Below the pieces are notes generated by a model. It was not told the origin of the DNA, searched no databases, and was given only the letters and a program-made list of their open reading frames with translations. A stretch of DNA of 21,999 nucleotides from a virus. This document shows, in pieces, positions 8,157 through 17,143 of the stretch (positions are counted from its first letter, which is position 1; the number at the start of each line of letters is the position of its first letter). The DNA lies in IMG/VR virus record IMGVR_UViG_3300042448_001056, positions 1 to 21,999 of that record; one strand, written 5' to 3'. The position numbers and the translations under genes were made by a program.

Positions 8157-8165
8157 GTTATAAGC
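8157..8165. repeat. half site: left end of the Mom cassette
   Basis: GTTATAAGC on the plus strand (GCTTATAAC on the minus strand) lies 7 nt after the stop of the Mom-like gene. It is the exact inverted match of GCTTATAAC at 9027-9035 on the far side of that gene; over 16 bases 14 match. No partner arm follows on the other side, so this looks like a truncated attC-like site. Confidence 0.55.
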
Positions 8166-8171
8166 AAGCTG

Positions 8172-8957
8172 CTACGTTCCTGCTTCGTTTGACAATTCCG
8201 TTTCAAAAGAATTAAAAAAAAGCCCACCCGCTTCAACTTTTTCAAAGTTGTTAGGGTTTTCAGCATAGTGCTTTGGATATGGCATTTCCTTTAATTTACA
8301 TCTTTGTTTTGTTTTTGCGTTCATAAAATAAATGTATCTAAATTGTCTAAATGTGTGCTTTATAGCTTCGTCTTTGGTTGCCTTTAGTCTTTTCGCCTTA
8401 CTGCTATTTGATGCACTCCTACCATTATTTGTAAGCATTATTTGGTGGTAAAATTCTCCGTCAATTTCGTAAAAGTCCGAAGTGTGTTCACCATAATAAC
8501 TAAAGTTTGCAGCCTGATAAACTATTCCAAAACCTCCACATCTTTGGTCTGCAAAACTTTGTATCCATTGCATAGTTTTAAATTTGCTTCTAATGTATTT
8601 GATGCAATAACTTAATGCTTTACTTTCGCTATTCCTTTCTGCTTTGTCATCAAACCACATTCTATTTAGTTCTAATGCTTCTCCTGCGTTTGTGCCTTCA
8701 ACTAAAGTCCCAACGGATAAGTTATTCAGTAAGTGTCCAAATTGTAAAACACCAAGCAATTCATTATTTATGTAGCATCCTAAATGAATATAAGAGTTAT
8801 TAAACACCTTTTTTGAATAGTGGTTTTTTACAATTACTTCAATCGCTTTGTTTCTATCCATTTCTTTTATATAAAATTCAGTAGAGCCAAAGCCTATTAT
8901 TTCTCTTGCTCCAAACATACTTTGTTGGTCGCTGTATATTAAATCTTTTTTTGCCAT
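8172..8957 (-). CDS. mom: Mom-like DNA adenine modification protein
   Basis: This 261-residue protein matches the Mom family, GNAT-fold proteins of which phage Mu Mom converts adenine to a carbamoylmethyl form and so protects phage DNA from restriction. Visible family features are NHYSKKVFNNSYIHLGCY around residues 45-62, LLGVLQFG at 68-75, LELNRMWFDD at 95-104, NSESKAL at 109-115, and SFADQRCGGFGIVYQAANF at 134-152. The C-terminal 80 residues are basic and probably contact DNA (KAKRLKATKDEAIKH, then FRQFRYIYF). The ATG at 8957 follows an A-rich stretch. The gene is bounded by inverted ends (8157-8165 and 9027-9035), so it sits in a cassette-like unit. No Com-like regulator was seen. Confidence 0.87.
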   Translation of the reverse strand: MAKKDLIYSDQQSMFGAREIIGFGSTEFYIKEMDRNKAIEVIVKNHYSKKVFNNSYIHLGCYINNELLGVLQFGHLLNNLSVGTLVEGTNAGEALELNRMWFDDKAERNSESKALSYCIKYIRSKFKTMQWIQSFADQRCGGFGIVYQAANFSYYGEHTSDFYEIDGEFYHQIMLTNNGRSASNSSKAKRLKATKDEAIKHTFRQFRYIYFMNAKTKQRCKLKEMPYPKHYAENPNNFEKVEAGGLFFNSFETELSNEAGT

Positions 8958-9007
8958 CCCTTCTTTTTTTTTAATTCTTTTGTTTAGTGCTTCGATTTGA
9001 GTTTAGT

Positions 9008-9019
9008 GGTTAATTAACC
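9008..9019. promoter_or_regulatory. 12-bp perfect palindrome upstream of the Mom-like gene
   Basis: GGTTAATTAACC lies about 50 bases upstream of the mom start, between it and palindrome A. It may be an operator for a dimeric regulator. No TAnnTTTG box is visible in this 160-base gap. Confidence 0.35.
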
Positions 9020-9026
9020 GCAGCCA

Positions 9027-9114
9027 GCTTATAACACGGGTTTGGCAAAATGGCTTTCCGACACACAAGCCAACGCACAAAAGCCACTTCGCCAAGCCCG
9101 ATAACGTTATACGC
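9027..9114 (-). repeat. attC-like palindrome A (between HNH and Mom units)
   Basis: On the plus strand: GCTTATAAC, A, stem CGGGTTTGGC (9037-9046), inner stem TGGCTTT (9051-9057), loop, AAAGCCA (9080-9086), stem GCCAAGCCCG (9091-9100), ATAAC (9101-9105), GTTATACGC (9106-9114). The main stem has 10 pairs with one G-T wobble. On the minus strand it begins five bases after the HNH stop codon. It shares the 1-nt/5-nt asymmetry with palindromes B and C. Confidence 0.7.
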
Positions 9115-9118
9115 AACC

Positions 9119-9739
9119 TTAAAAAACACCACTATTTACAGATTTGTTTATCAATCTATTCTTAGCCATATTTGATAAAATTTCTGTTTTTTTTCTATCA
9201 TATTCCTCAAGAATTGTTTTTGCTAGTTGATATATTTTATGGCATTCAATCATATCAACGGATGAGTGCAGATTAACTTCTACACCTTCAAAGCAAATTC
9301 TTGTTGAATATTGGTACTCATCCATTTTGTAAACACCTGTTAATCCCGTTTTATTACTCATCTTTGCTGCTACAAAATTCCTTTTTGTTATTAGCTTTAA
9401 ATTATCTAAATTGCAGTTCAACGGGTTTCCATCTTTCGGAATTACTAAGTGGTTTCTTTGCAACTTAACATTATTAAATAAAGAATAAACTAATCTGTTT
9501 AAGCTGTATTGTTTATGTTTTTTCCCACTTCTTAGGTTTACGGTAAATTGTTCTTTTTTTGTTGGTTTTAAAATCCTTCCTGTATTGACGTTTTTAACGT
9601 ACCCATTTCTTGAAACAATATACTCGTTTTCAAAATCTGGTACTTTTATTTCATCTTCTGAAAAAGGCTGCGTATAACAGCCGTTTTGCAAAAGCGGGGG
9701 CTGCGTGCTATCTTGAAGTTTAGTGCTATTATCAATCAT
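9119..9739 (-). CDS. HNH homing-endonuclease-like protein (NUMOD4-type)
   Basis: This is a 206-residue protein. Residues about 35-60 (DFENEYIVSRNGYVKNVNTG, then RILKP) match the NUMOD4 entry motif of phage HNH endonucleases. Residues 62-120 form the HNH core (YSLNRLVYSLF, then PKDGNPLNCNLDNLKLIT). The usual 'nHkDGN' histidine is replaced, reading IPKDGN, so activity is uncertain. Residues 128-180 (NKTGLTGVYKMDEYQYSTRI) resemble the AP2-like DNA-binding module that often follows. Residues 1 to about 24 are encoded by palindrome B and resemble repeat translation rather than a domain. No other ATG lies before the domains, so the ATG at 9739 stays the best start. It occupies one cassette-like unit. 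Confidence 0.75.
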   Translation of the reverse strand: MIDNSTKLQDSTQPPLLQNGCYTQPFSEDEIKVPDFENEYIVSRNGYVKNVNTGRILKPTKKEQFTVNLRSGKKHKQYSLNRLVYSLFNNVKLQRNHLVIPKDGNPLNCNLDNLKLITKRNFVAAKMSNKTGLTGVYKMDEYQYSTRICFEGVEVNLHSSVDMIECHKIYQLAKTILEEYDRKKTEILSNMAKNRLINKSVNSGVF

Positions 9740-9805
9740 TGTTCTAATTTTAAAATTTAGTGCTATTTATACCCCGCCTTCGCAAAGCGGCAAACCGTTA
9801 GTTGC
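9670..9805 (-). repeat. attC-like palindrome B with long loop
   Basis: On the plus strand: GCGTATAAC (9670-9678), A, a 20-base arm (9680-9699, GCCGTTTTGCAAAAGCGGGG), a 72-base loop, a 20-base arm (9772-9791, CCCCGCCTTCGCAAAGCGGC), AAACC, GTTAGTTGC (9797-9805). The arms pair over 17 of 20 positions and the other three are wobble pairs. The loop holds a 12-base direct repeat (TTTAGTGCTATT at 9719-9730 and 9756-9767) and the HNH start codon. On the minus strand the element begins in the stop codon of the 54-aa gene. Confidence 0.75.
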
Positions 9806-9969
9806 TATTTTACCGACCACTCCGAAAGTTTAGACTTAATAATTAATTTCAGTTCATCAACTTTTGACAATGGACAGCGAAAAGCAACTGTTTTAGTTTG
9901 TTCCAAGTATTTAGGTTTAGCACCCGACCCTTGCCGAGTGCCTCCCCTTGTTTCTTTTTTTTTAGTCAT
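9805..9969 (-). CDS. small basic protein (54 aa), RHH-like
   Basis: This short gene encodes MTKKKETRGGTRQGSGAKPK, then YLEQTKTVAFRCPLSKVDEL, then a short helix ending WSVK. The basic 'RGGTRqGsGaKPk' start followed by 'kTvafRcPlskvdel' is a pattern I know from small ribbon-helix-helix-like proteins. In these the strand after the basic arm (TVAFRC) inserts into DNA. It overlaps the upstream gene by 8 nt and its TAG (9807-9805) falls in the first base of palindrome B. It is probably a small DNA-binding regulator of its unit. The RHH assignment is by pattern only; only one helix is predicted after the strand, so the domain may be incomplete. Confidence 0.65.
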   Translation of the reverse strand: MTKKKETRGGTRQGSGAKPKYLEQTKTVAFRCPLSKVDELKLIIKSKLSEWSVK

Positions 9970-10183
9970 TAAATACATTTTTTATTTTTTTTGAATTAAT
10001 CAAGTATGTATCTTTTTGACCATCTGAATATAAATCTGTTTGATATGTATGTAAAAAAATCTCAAACCCAACTTCCTTGCATTTCAAAGTCTTTGTTTGT
10101 CCTTTTGTGTATAAGAATTGACCATTAGCAAAAATTGGCATTTTGACTGTTTTAGATTTTAATGTGCTTAATATAATTTCCAT
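9962..10183 (-). CDS. hypothetical protein (73 aa)
   Basis: I do not recognise this protein. It starts MEIILSTLKSKTVKMPIFAN and continues GQFLYTKGQTKTLKCKEVGF, then EIFLHTYQTDLYSDG. The alternating strands suggest a small beta barrel or SH3-like fold. It ends in a basic tail. It is the first gene behind a good promoter (10226-10256) with a leader of about 35 nt, and it overlaps the 54-aa basic protein gene by 8 nt. The two form one small unit between palindromes B and C. Confidence 0.65.
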   Translation of the reverse strand: MEIILSTLKSKTVKMPIFANGQFLYTKGQTKTLKCKEVGFEIFLHTYQTDLYSDGQKDTYLINSKKIKNVFND

Positions 10184-10225
10184 TTTGTTTGTTTTTAGTG
10201 TTGTGCTTAATTGCTTTCAACGATA

Positions 10226-10256
10226 CAAATATACAACCTTATTTTGATTATGCAAA
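10226..10256 (-). promoter_or_regulatory. Bacteroidota-type promoter (TTTG-19-TATATTTG)
   Basis: On the minus strand TTTG (10256-10253), a 19-nt spacer and TATATTTG (10233-10226) match the consensus fully. It would start transcription about 40 bases before the gene at 10183 and lies inside the third cassette-like unit, so the unit brings its own promoter. Confidence 0.8.
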
Positions 10257-10317
10257 CTATTTCAAAGATATTTTTAATTTATTTTCTAAAGTGCTGAAAA
10301 TCAAAGAGAAAAAAACA

Positions 10318-10372
10318 GCAGCTAACAGCACCTATGCGCCATTAAAACGAGCGCATAGCTGCAAAACGTTAA
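10318..10372 (-). repeat. attC-like palindrome C (after the DnaA-like gene)
   Basis: On the plus strand: GCAGCTAAC (10318-10326), A, stem GCACCTATGCGC (10328-10339), an 11-base loop, stem GCGCATAGCTGC (10351-10362), AAAAC (10363-10367), GTTAA (10368-10372). The stem has 12 pairs with one mismatch. The stop codon of the DnaA-like gene (10371-10369) lies inside its outer box. A T-run about 15 bases further on the minus strand (near 10317-10311) means it might also work as a weak terminator. Confidence 0.72.
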
Positions 10373-10797
10373 TTAATACTCGCCACTATCTCACCAATAT
10401 AATCCCTAATCTTCTCGGTGTATTTGCCATCGAATTTCAAATCTGCTGCTATCCTATCCCTGCCATTAATCACACTTGCATGATGTCTATTATTTAATTT
10501 TCCTAATTCAGTAACAGTCAATCCGCAATGCTTATAAGCAAGATAAAAGTGGATATGTCTTGCCATTACAATATTAGTAAGCCTTGATGTACCTTTTAAT
10601 TTTTCAAGTGAAATTTCGGTAACTTTTGAAACAATCTTTAGTAACTCATCATGCTTTACGACATTGTTTTTTACGTCTTTTGGCTGTGGCTTTTTTTTGC
10701 CAACCATAAAATGGATATGTGAAAATGTCTTAGGCTCATATTCCTTTTCGTAGAATCTTGAAAATGTTACTTGTTTACGTCTGTTTATGATTTGCAT
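10369..10797 (-). CDS. stand-alone DnaA domain IV-like DNA-binding protein
   Basis: This is a 142-residue protein from the ATG at 10797; a GTG at 10803 would add two residues. Residues about 50-120 match domain IV of the replication initiator DnaA: the helix TSRLTNIVMARHIHFYLAYK, then GLTVTELGKLNNRHHASVIN, then GRDRI. The 'N-R-H-H-A-S-V-I-N-G' segment corresponds to the DnaA signature 'GGRDHSTVlhA' that reads the DnaA box. No AAA+ ATPase domain is present. The N-terminal 45 residues are basic. I infer binding to DnaA boxes, for replication or as a competitor of host DnaA; one perfect box lies at 13423-13431. It overlaps the YqaJ gene by 13 nt. Confidence 0.82.
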   Translation of the reverse strand: MQIINRRKQVTFSRFYEKEYEPKTFSHIHFMVGKKKPQPKDVKNNVVKHDELLKIVSKVTEISLEKLKGTSRLTNIVMARHIHFYLAYKHCGLTVTELGKLNNRHHASVINGRDRIAADLKFDGKYTEKIRDYIGEIVASIN

Positions 10798-11516
10798 ACC
10801 CACGCTGTTTTATCGTTAATAATTACTTCACCATCCCAGTTCACCCAGTTAATGTCTTTTAGCTTTTGATACCTTTTTTTACTAACAAACTGCATGTAAA
10901 AAAATTCATCTTCATCCATTATTTTGGCGTTCCTTAATAGTTCATCTGCAACTCCGATTAAAGGATATTTTTCTTCACACGTTGCTAAAATCTTATCGCA
11001 CGTTTCTTCATCTTTTGGAACTTCATGAATGTAAAATCTTTCTTCAAGTGGAAAAGGATATTCGCTCCAGTCATCTTGACCAAACTCTTCAGGCTTCGTT
11101 AGATAATTAATTAAATAGCCATAGTCAACTTTCAAAGCCATCATTTGCACCTGTAATTGAAGATAGTACTTTTTAGCCAGTTTATCGCACTGTTCAAAGT
11201 AATTGAATATTGAGTATTGACATTTGCTATCCGCTACCCATTTGCCCTCTGAAATAGCGTCAGGTGTAGCTCCAAGTTTATCATTCACTTTATAAAATGT
11301 TTGATTTGGCTCACCTCCGTAAATAGAGGTGAGTATCTCAATTGCCGTTACTTCGTTTACTATTCCATGCAACATTGGTTTAGTACTGATTTCTTTTTTA
11401 AGTCCGTTTAAGTTTTCGGCTATTTCAAAGATGTAATTAAATGCGGTTTTGCCTGTTCCACCTGCCATCAAATCTCCGATTCTACTGGCACTAAAGCACC
11501 CCTTTTTATTTTCCAT
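10785..11516 (-). CDS. YqaJ-type recombination exonuclease
   Basis: This is a 243-residue protein from the ATG at 11516; an in-frame ATG at 11558 would overlap the previous gene by 53 nt. It belongs to the YqaJ/lambda-exo-like nuclease superfamily. Motifs seen: SASRIGDLMAG (residues 9-19), Glu55 in HGIVNEVTAIE, Asp86 in GATPDAI, DSK at 97-99, and Gln residues in YYLQLQVQMMAL. These give the acidic-Asp-DxK catalytic set. Such exonucleases resect one strand so that an annealing protein can load. The ERF gene two places upstream is the expected partner, giving a Red-like recombination pair. The stop overlaps the DnaA-like gene. Confidence 0.87.
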   Translation of the reverse strand: MENKKGCFSASRIGDLMAGGTGKTAFNYIFEIAENLNGLKKEISTKPMLHGIVNEVTAIEILTSIYGGEPNQTFYKVNDKLGATPDAISEGKWVADSKCQYSIFNYFEQCDKLAKKYYLQLQVQMMALKVDYGYLINYLTKPEEFGQDDWSEYPFPLEERFYIHEVPKDEETCDKILATCEEKYPLIGVADELLRNAKIMDEDEFFYMQFVSKKRYQKLKDINWVNWDGEVIINDKTAWVCKS

Positions 11517-16575: not shown

Positions 16576-16828
16576 CTTTTGATTCGTTTTTTTCTTTTCT
16601 TAATAAAAATGAATTGTACGCTCCATAGCCATACAATGTCGAACTCAATAAAACAATAGAACCAGTATCAAACCCATCAACACACGCCACACAACATAGT
16701 CGTAAAGTCGCATAGGCAACTATAATTAATGTCGCACTTGTAAATGAAACAAAGCGTTCTATTTTCTTTGAACTTAAATAACTTTTCTGTGCCGAAAAAG
16801 TTGCATATAAATCACTCCACAATCTCAT
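16565..16828 (-). CDS. holin-like protein with two membrane helices
   Basis: This is an 87-residue protein with membrane helices at about 27-49 (VSFTSATLIIVAYATLRLCC) and 56-76 (GSIVLLSSTLYGYGAYNSFL). It has a basic region in front and a highly charged tail (RKEKNESKDEN). This is the form of a class II holin, in front of the coiled-coil protein and the endolysin. It begins MRLWSDLYAT, and the same first eight codons start the preceding 50-aa gene because of a 25-bp direct repeat. The start overlaps that gene's stop as ATGA. Confidence 0.75.
   Translation of the reverse strand: MRLWSDLYATFSAQKSYLSSKKIERFVSFTSATLIIVAYATLRLCCVACVDGFDTGSIVLLSSTLYGYGAYNSFLLRKEKNESKDEN
16804..16828 (-). repeat. 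25-bp direct repeat, copy 1 (start of the holin-like gene)
   Basis: On the minus strand it begins ATGAGATTGTGGAGTGATTT. It is identical to 16953-16977, 149 bases away. This copy encodes MRLWSDLY plus one base at the holin-like start. Confidence 0.9.
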
Positions 16829-16977
16829 TTTTCTTTATTTTTTCCGATAGTCATTCCGATGGTTTCTACTTTCGCATCTTCTACGTACCATTTGTTTATA
16901 GAATTATTTAATCTAAATTTATTAGTGTTTTTTCCGATGGTTATTAAGGCCTCATATAAATCACTCCACAATCTCAT
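16825..16977 (-). CDS. small protein (50 aa) sharing its N-terminus with the holin-like gene
   Basis: The frame starts at the ATG 16977, inside the end of the 60-aa gene (17-nt overlap), and ends with TGA at 16825-16827, coupled as ATGA to the holin-like gene. It encodes MRLWSDLYEALITIGKNTNK, then FRLNNSINKWYVEDAKVETI, then GMTIGKNKEK. The first eight residues are the same as those of the next gene. TIGKN occurs twice (residues 13-17 and 43-47). Without this frame the gap of 132 bases would be empty. The short length leaves room for doubt; it could instead be the scar of a duplication. Confidence 0.5.
   Translation of the reverse strand: MRLWSDLYEALITIGKNTNKFRLNNSINKWYVEDAKVETIGMTIGKNKEK
16953..16977 (-). 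repeat. 25-bp direct repeat, copy 2 (two frames used)
   Basis: Identical to 16804-16828. Here the same bases serve both as the last codons of the 60-aa gene (EIVE and its TGA) and as the start of the 50-aa frame (MRLWSDLY). Confidence 0.9.
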
Positions 16978-17143
16978 CTTCTATCGGTTGGTTTTTAATT
17001 AACTCATCATAAAATGCTTTTCTTTCTTGTTCGCTTTCAAAGAAATAGTATTTTTCGCCATCGAAATGACTGCCAAACTTTGTGTCGGGAATCTCTTTTG
17101 GGGAAAATCCGTTGTCTTTAAATATCGCTTCAATTATTATCAT
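16961..17143 (-). CDS. hypothetical protein (60 aa) after the tail fibre
   Basis: The start is the ATG at 17143, coupled as ATGA to the tail-fibre stop; a longer in-frame start at 17290 would lie wholly inside the fibre gene and add residues without sense. It reads MIIIEAIFKDNGFSPKEIPD, then TKFGSHFDGEKYYFFESEQE, then a helix and an acidic end. The 'FxPxEvPDTKFGxHy..e.fyyFeSe.E+.aFy.e' pattern is one I associate with small proteins next to phage fibres. Its role is unknown; a fibre chaperone is possible by position. Confidence 0.68.
   Translation of the reverse strand: MIIIEAIFKDNGFSPKEIPDTKFGSHFDGEKYYFFESEQERKAFYDELIKNQPIEDEIVE

Follow-up and report, generated by a model that had tools for sequence, protein, structure and literature searches.

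An HNH endonuclease gene that starts inside an attC-like hairpin, a probable cassette of a phage-borne integron-like array

The start codon of an HNH endonuclease gene in a viral DNA fragment (an IMG/VR virus record of 21,999 bases, here called the window) lies inside an attC-like palindrome. This raises the question of whether the putative recombination site lends its start to any gene inserted behind it, as the original prediction assumed, or whether the start belongs to the gene and moves with it. The window also encodes terminase, Mom, Erf, NinG and DnaA-C-like genes, and all coding regions treated in the hairpin and cassette analysis are located on the minus strand. The data indicate that the HNH gene belongs to a phage-borne, integron-like array as one of its cassettes, and that the hairpin bearing the start moves together with the gene (probability of about 0.8). 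Sequence comparison shows the array itself, its borders and polarity, its linkage to a recombinase and the sharing of leaders between proteins.

In the minus-strand order the palindrome, designated element B, is arranged as GCAACTAAC-GGTTT-arm-72-base loop-arm-T-GTTATACGCAG (Table 1). The loop contains, as predicted, two identical 12-base direct repeats (9719-9730 and 9756-9767, TTTAGTGCTATT); AGCACTAAA-like units repeated at a similar spacing were also seen in the loops of many phage elements. From the in-frame stop that precedes the ORF up to the NUMOD4 domain there is a single in-frame ATG, which falls in this loop, where the start had been placed; the only other common start codon of the ORF is a TTG at 9691 (residue 17), in the arm. 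Residues 1-20 are encoded by the loop and the arm and residues about 21-25 by the outer box, in line with the expectation that about 24 residues derive from the element, and the translation of the arm gave the anticipated PPLLQNG. The protein possesses NUMOD4 and HNH domains (PHROG 59, E 1.5e-17), with the Pfam matches to NUMOD4 and HNH_3 slightly below the gathering scores. Because the domain matches begin at residue 29-32, residues 1-28 lie outside the domains. The window gene thus shares its domain content with HNH/NUMOD4 phage endonucleases (PHROG 59, 959) but differs from them in these N-terminal residues, which are outside all domain matches and mostly hairpin-derived. Homologues found by protein search reached residues 80-120 only and were uninformative on the N-terminus.

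Table 1. Coordinates of the hairpins, genes and cassettes in the window
Feature	Position	Strand	Remarks
Variable cassette array, whole	8157..10371	-	Replaced or absent in related phages
Mom cassette	8157..9109	-	Hairpin A + Mom-like ORF 8172-8957; end box TAGCAGCTTGCTTATAAC at 8157-8174
Hairpin element A	9032..9109	-	Arms 9037-9058 and 9079-9100; 20-base loop without a start
HNH cassette	9110..9800	-	Hairpin B + gene; limits inferred from the boxes
HNH/NUMOD4 endonuclease ORF	9119..9739	-	206 aa
Hairpin element B	9675..9800	-	GTTA box 9675-9678, spacer 9792-9796, TAAC box 9797-9800
Arms of B	9680-9699 + 9772-9791	-	20 bases each; 72-base loop 9700-9771 between them
ATG of the HNH ORF	9737-9739	-	Within the loop of B
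First cassette	9801..10371	-	Hairpin C + 73-aa ORF 9962-10183; plus a short ORF near 9805-9969, by eye
Hairpin element C	10323..10371	-	First in the array; arms 10328-10343 and 10346-10362
Conserved DnaA-C-like gene	10369..10803	-	Upstream border of the array

Two further hairpins, A and C, share the layout of B; element A forms the 5' leader of the Mom gene and the TAAC box of C overlaps the stop of the DnaA-like gene. A finder for the order TAACG-arm-loop-arm-TGTTA gave three matches in the window vs. none in 60 first-order Markov versions, which argues that palindrome B is not due to chance. When folded alone as single-stranded DNA, B was no more stable than its shuffles (z of -0.15 and -0.77); A and C were stabler (z from -2.7 to -3.7). 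No family was matched in an Rfam search, blastn with palindrome B returned weak matches only, and exact patterns for the outer boxes, which were too narrow, had no matches in the genome or viral contigs. The end boxes of the HNH cassette (GTTATACGCAGCC and GGTTGCGTATAAC) are inverted repeats identical at 10 of the 12 bases after GTTA. For the two segments between elements in the window, the end boxes agreed at 9 and 10 of these 12 bases; the two boxes of one and the same site matched at only 3 and 4 of 12.

The blastn search with palindrome A led to Baltic Flavobacterium phages carrying arrays rich in DNA methyltransferases. In the window and ten Flavobacterium phage stretches the finder detected 114 elements, and over all 17 sources 120 (0 in the reversed control). 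The two ends of a cassette matched at 8.97 of 12 positions on average (n = 31), compared with 4.38 after shuffled pairing. Of 84 viral stretches, chosen by pattern and including some near-duplicates, 83 gave 242 elements vs. 1 in the reversed sequence, and the ends of their 134 cassettes matched at 8.04/12 vs. 4.01 when shuffled; position 11 of the box is a conserved mismatch here, the ends agreeing in only 5%. A second viral set behaved alike (7.69/11 vs. 3.81, n = 162). Complementary cassette ends (R'/R''), one of the criteria for integrons, were thus found in these elements.

The orientation of the genes differed between phages and chromosomes. Where the ends of a phage cassette matched, its longest ORF was on the strand of the element in 143 cases and on the opposite strand in 1 (6 had no ORF of 50 codons), and the recombinase-anchored viral set gave 149 and 9, respectively. 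The canonical polarity, with an ORF followed by its attC, was almost absent from the phages and present in 64 of 66 chromosomal cassettes (2 ORFs on the element strand, 2 cassettes without an ORF of 50 codons). The phage genes are thus turned round relative to canonical integrons, so that each hairpin is the 5' leader of its gene.

To count starts within hairpins, an ATG inside the element was required, opening an ORF that continued for at least about 40 codons past the GTTA box. Such starts were present in 59 of 110 long phage elements (2 in the mirror control), in 5 of 138 short phage elements (mirror 4) and in 7 of 73 long chromosomal elements (mirror 1). In the second viral set, after removal of the already counted elements, an ATG was found in 67 of 119 long elements, with 2 in the mirror control. 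The median distance from ATG to GTTA was 57 nt, and all three reading frames across the box were in use. Among 135 phage leaders, 61 similar pairs were detected, and in 56 of them the rest of the protein was unrelated by blastp (0 with shuffled leaders), which bears out the expectation that the same peptide would be found fused to unrelated proteins. Eight leaders (MKDLKHIKRFNESEENLNISDV...) formed one group ahead of eight unrelated tails, and the near-identical leader RITEQPFCQTRVSGST preceded an N6/N4 methyltransferase in one phage locus (L007) and a C5 methyltransferase in another (L027). A relative at the window locus (L252) carried the leader EPPTFGNVLLCAV on another protein, and gp006 of mumin, a Flavobacterium phage of the mumin group, is a predicted protein with MIDRITEQPFCQTR... 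Elsewhere, the leader of the window HNH protein was matched only moderately (score of 0.42, with ...AIAQNRCYTQP in front of a methyltransferase). A leader pN/pS of about 0.51 was set aside, as the pairs were picked by amino-acid similarity and were non-independent.

Whether a hairpin stays with its gene was examined in a junction test on 5413 element pairs between different phages, taken from 10 Flavobacterium phages. The upstream side was shared while the element and downstream side differed in 87 pairs (31 configurations), and the element with its gene was shared behind a differing upstream side in 60 pairs (22 configurations). Only 6 pairs (2 configurations) shared the upstream side and the element and differed in the downstream gene. 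All three parts were shared in 154 pairs, none in 5054, and the remaining classes comprised 28, 21 and 3 pairs. For the most part, then, a hairpin moves along with the gene that follows it. A canonical cassette with the site downstream of the HNH gene had been considered and was dropped after the junction test and the counts of gene polarity.

The relatives of the window locus encoded a DnaA-like protein 76-99% identical to that of the window, followed by other cassettes or none, and the breaks were located at or near TAAC boxes, outside the hairpins. Two of them (L244, L245) were 99.4% identical to the window through the end of the DnaA-like gene, continued with different genes and matched the window again from its last TAAC box onward. 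In two others (L251, L252) different cassettes began exactly at TTAATTAAC. A short additional segment (AAGCGGATTTCGATGTAAC) was present at the upstream border in L244, L245 and L247, so the break there was some bases off TAAC. In L250, TTAATTAA was joined directly to TTACTGGC, giving a nearly empty site, and the next small gene was also missing. The array and the breaks near TAAC suggest that palindrome B is, as had been proposed, a recombination site, in this case one of a cassette.

The strongest rival reading is that a fixed recombination site donates its start to any gene inserted, with exchange at GTTA within the coding sequence. It would account for the shared leaders on unrelated tails and for the same hairpin in front of different genes, observed in 613 pairs (400 distinct configurations) among 452 elements; these hairpins were 85% or more identical, many of them 98% or more, and among the matches listed the identity stopped within a few tens of bases past GTTA. 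However, close phages kept the hairpin with the gene (60 pairs vs. 6 for the reverse), and the breaks at the window locus lay at or near TAAC, which makes a fixed site unlikely. The prediction thus stood in that the HNH gene receives its start and about 20 residues from the site, and needs revision in that this is not a fixed site serving any in-frame insert: in recent shuffles the hairpin moves with the gene, and exchange would occur at the TAAC box beyond the hairpin, which makes the start a part of the cassette. Since hairpins were also shared without the gene, leader and gene are separable modules over longer times. Such a change of partners may reflect how new cassettes form.

A tyrosine recombinase that resembles IntI/XerA and is extended at its N-terminus recurred in 15 genomes holding pattern-found loci, and nine such recombinases were aligned. 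The best solved relatives of one recombinase tested were XerA-type recombinases, followed by IntI4. TIGR02249 was matched by 9/9 chromosomal and 4 phage recombinases tested; among the matches listed the scores were 223 and 143-171, below the cut-off of 265, and those for the XerA/integron integrase model NF040815 were below its cut-off too. With regard to the IntI-specific insertion in the catalytic domain, profile positions about 183-237 were unmatched in the split matches.

In 295 Bacteroidia genomes (G001, G016-G309), the recombinase family was found in 148 (E below 1e-70) and was absent from 147. AttC-like elements occurred in 211 of the 295; at E of at most 1e-6, they were detected in 135 of the 148 genomes with the recombinase vs. 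67 of the 147 without it (Fisher p 3.6e-18, a value that ignores the kinship of the genomes). The elements in these 67 genomes may depend on another recombinase or be relics. Around 27 recombinases in genomes, 81 hairpins pointed toward the enzyme and 2 away; the finder used for these loci was a laxer one and gave 84 elements vs. 8 in the reversed sequence. Among the best 80 of 268 recombinase relatives in viral contigs, several of which were duplicates, 63 carried elements (277 vs. 0 reversed), 270 of them directed toward the recombinase and 7 away. For the end-box comparison 28 phage loci were entered and one could not be assessed; the matching end box of the last cassette, a putative attI-like box agreeing at 8 or more of 11 positions, was located upstream of the recombinase in 20 of the other 27, in 14 loci 37-53 nt ahead of its ATG. 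In one locus (L228) a recombinase of the array type adjoined a terminase gene. No integrase was identified within the 22-kb window fragment. In three loci (L150, L151, L155) the recombinase was on the hairpin strand, unlike in most chromosomal loci.

The inner stem of 69 long-class elements showed many two-sided changes, with a covariation of 0.618 vs. 0.153 when shuffled and 0.06-0.14 when slid, although the level of pairing is partly built in, as the elements were picked by pairing score. Some stem positions were conserved as G-T or C-A, and these possibly mark the strand or polarity like the extrahelical bases of attC. Such pairs were noticed at stem columns 34:127 and 25:136 of A2 and at box position 11.

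A stem kept paired through compensatory change would also suit RNA 5' leaders or regulators, the arrays then changing by homologous recombination (Erf/NinG) between similar hairpins. The phage has both Erf and NinG genes, and the recurring hairpins would offer homology. This explanation was nevertheless judged very improbable, since the flanks have few bases in common at the breaks, which lie at or close to TAAC, the cassette ends are inverted repeats, the hairpins are strictly linked to a tyrosine recombinase and strictly oriented relative to it, and the chromosomal genes have canonical polarity. The least probable explanation, that the HNH ORF opens by chance or misannotation into an unrelated terminator-like palindrome and really starts at TTG 9691 or a non-canonical codon, draws on that TTG and on the unremarkable stability of B alone, but it conflicts with the excess of starts in hairpins over mirror controls in two sets and with the recurrence of leaders on other proteins.

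In the integron-like reading, a cassette would consist of an attC-like hairpin followed by a gene and would end at a TAAC box. The IntI/XerA-like tyrosine recombinase would exchange cassettes on the TAAC side of the hairpin; it is encoded at the end of the array in other phages, and for the window it presumably acts in trans or is encoded beyond the fragment. The inversion of the gene relative to the canonical layout would turn the hairpin into a 5' leader, and in the long-loop class, in which the loop often holds an ATG, translation would run through the arm and outer box into the gene, so that the start would travel with its gene. Over longer time scales, hairpins would swap genes at the GTTA box, placing the same leader peptide on unrelated proteins. 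Single-strand folding, strand exchange and translation start are steps that we infer. It appears fairly probable that Bacteroidota phages have an integron-like system of their own, with a dedicated recombinase, inverted cassettes and a hairpin doubling as translation start; shuffled genes would then stay expressible even where there is no platform promoter, and the swapping of hairpins would mix N-terminal leaders between unrelated proteins.

Like integron cassettes with attC sites (IntI), the arrays are bounded by imperfect palindromes, have complementary cassette ends and a GTT core, and possess a tyrosine recombinase at one end, relative to which the sites have the same polarity. In contrast to attC, the boxes read GTTA and not GTTRRRY, the inner stem is about 20 bp and has conserved G-T/C-A positions, the recombinase scores below the IntI cut-off, and the phage ORF is inverted, with the site 5' of it and often holding the ATG. 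The attC consensus GTTRRRY/RYYYAAC was not recovered: GTTA itself was fixed by the finder, the base following it was mostly T or G, and later ones varied.

CALINs, attC arrays often with DNA methyltransferases, have been described in phages including the Bacteroidota phage P12002L, and activity of IntI1 on sites of a Polaribacter phage has been reported (Qi et al. 2023, PMC9892861). That paper, in the parts considered here, stresses the usual cassette direction, with divergent sites in P12002L; its outline and sections 2 and 3.4 mention neither inverted genes whose start lies within the site nor array-linked phage integrases of this type. In class 1 integrons, signals for translation located inside or close to a recombination site can serve cassette genes, as here, in fused cassettes and through ORF-11, but according to the portions of the report compared (PMC4670013) such cases are rare, arise via attC loss or reinitiation from attI and involve no systematic site-derived leader peptide. 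In the relevant passages of the IntegronFinder 2 paper, a complete integron in Bacteroidetes proper is given only for Salinibacter ruber (PMC9024848), and the attC taxon models, as presented in part of PMC8352920, include none for Bacteroidetes. The words palindrom-, hairpin, inverted repeat and integron are absent from the text available of the Baltic phage paper (PMC7077304), and excerpts of further literature were compared (PMC8138268, PMC2426708, PMC8618304). Searches of open-access literature, preprints excluded, turned up no account of phage cassettes that are inverted and start within the site, which does not prove that none exists.

The chromosomal arrays with ordinary polarity beside an IntI/XerA-like recombinase seem to form a large integron-like set missed by standard tools, and DNA methyltransferases and other phage genes are carried by the phage form, in which the genes are inverted. 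If one site serves as recombination substrate and start codon alike, this would offer a testable explanation of how cassettes lacking a promoter come to be expressed; the breaks between hairpin and gene at GTTA bear on how new cassettes arise. P12002L contains two short possible relatives of the elements, at 38035-38090 and 38879-38936. The window also holds a 28-base direct repeat, 96% identical, at 16804-16831 and 16953-16980, with the copies 149 apart.
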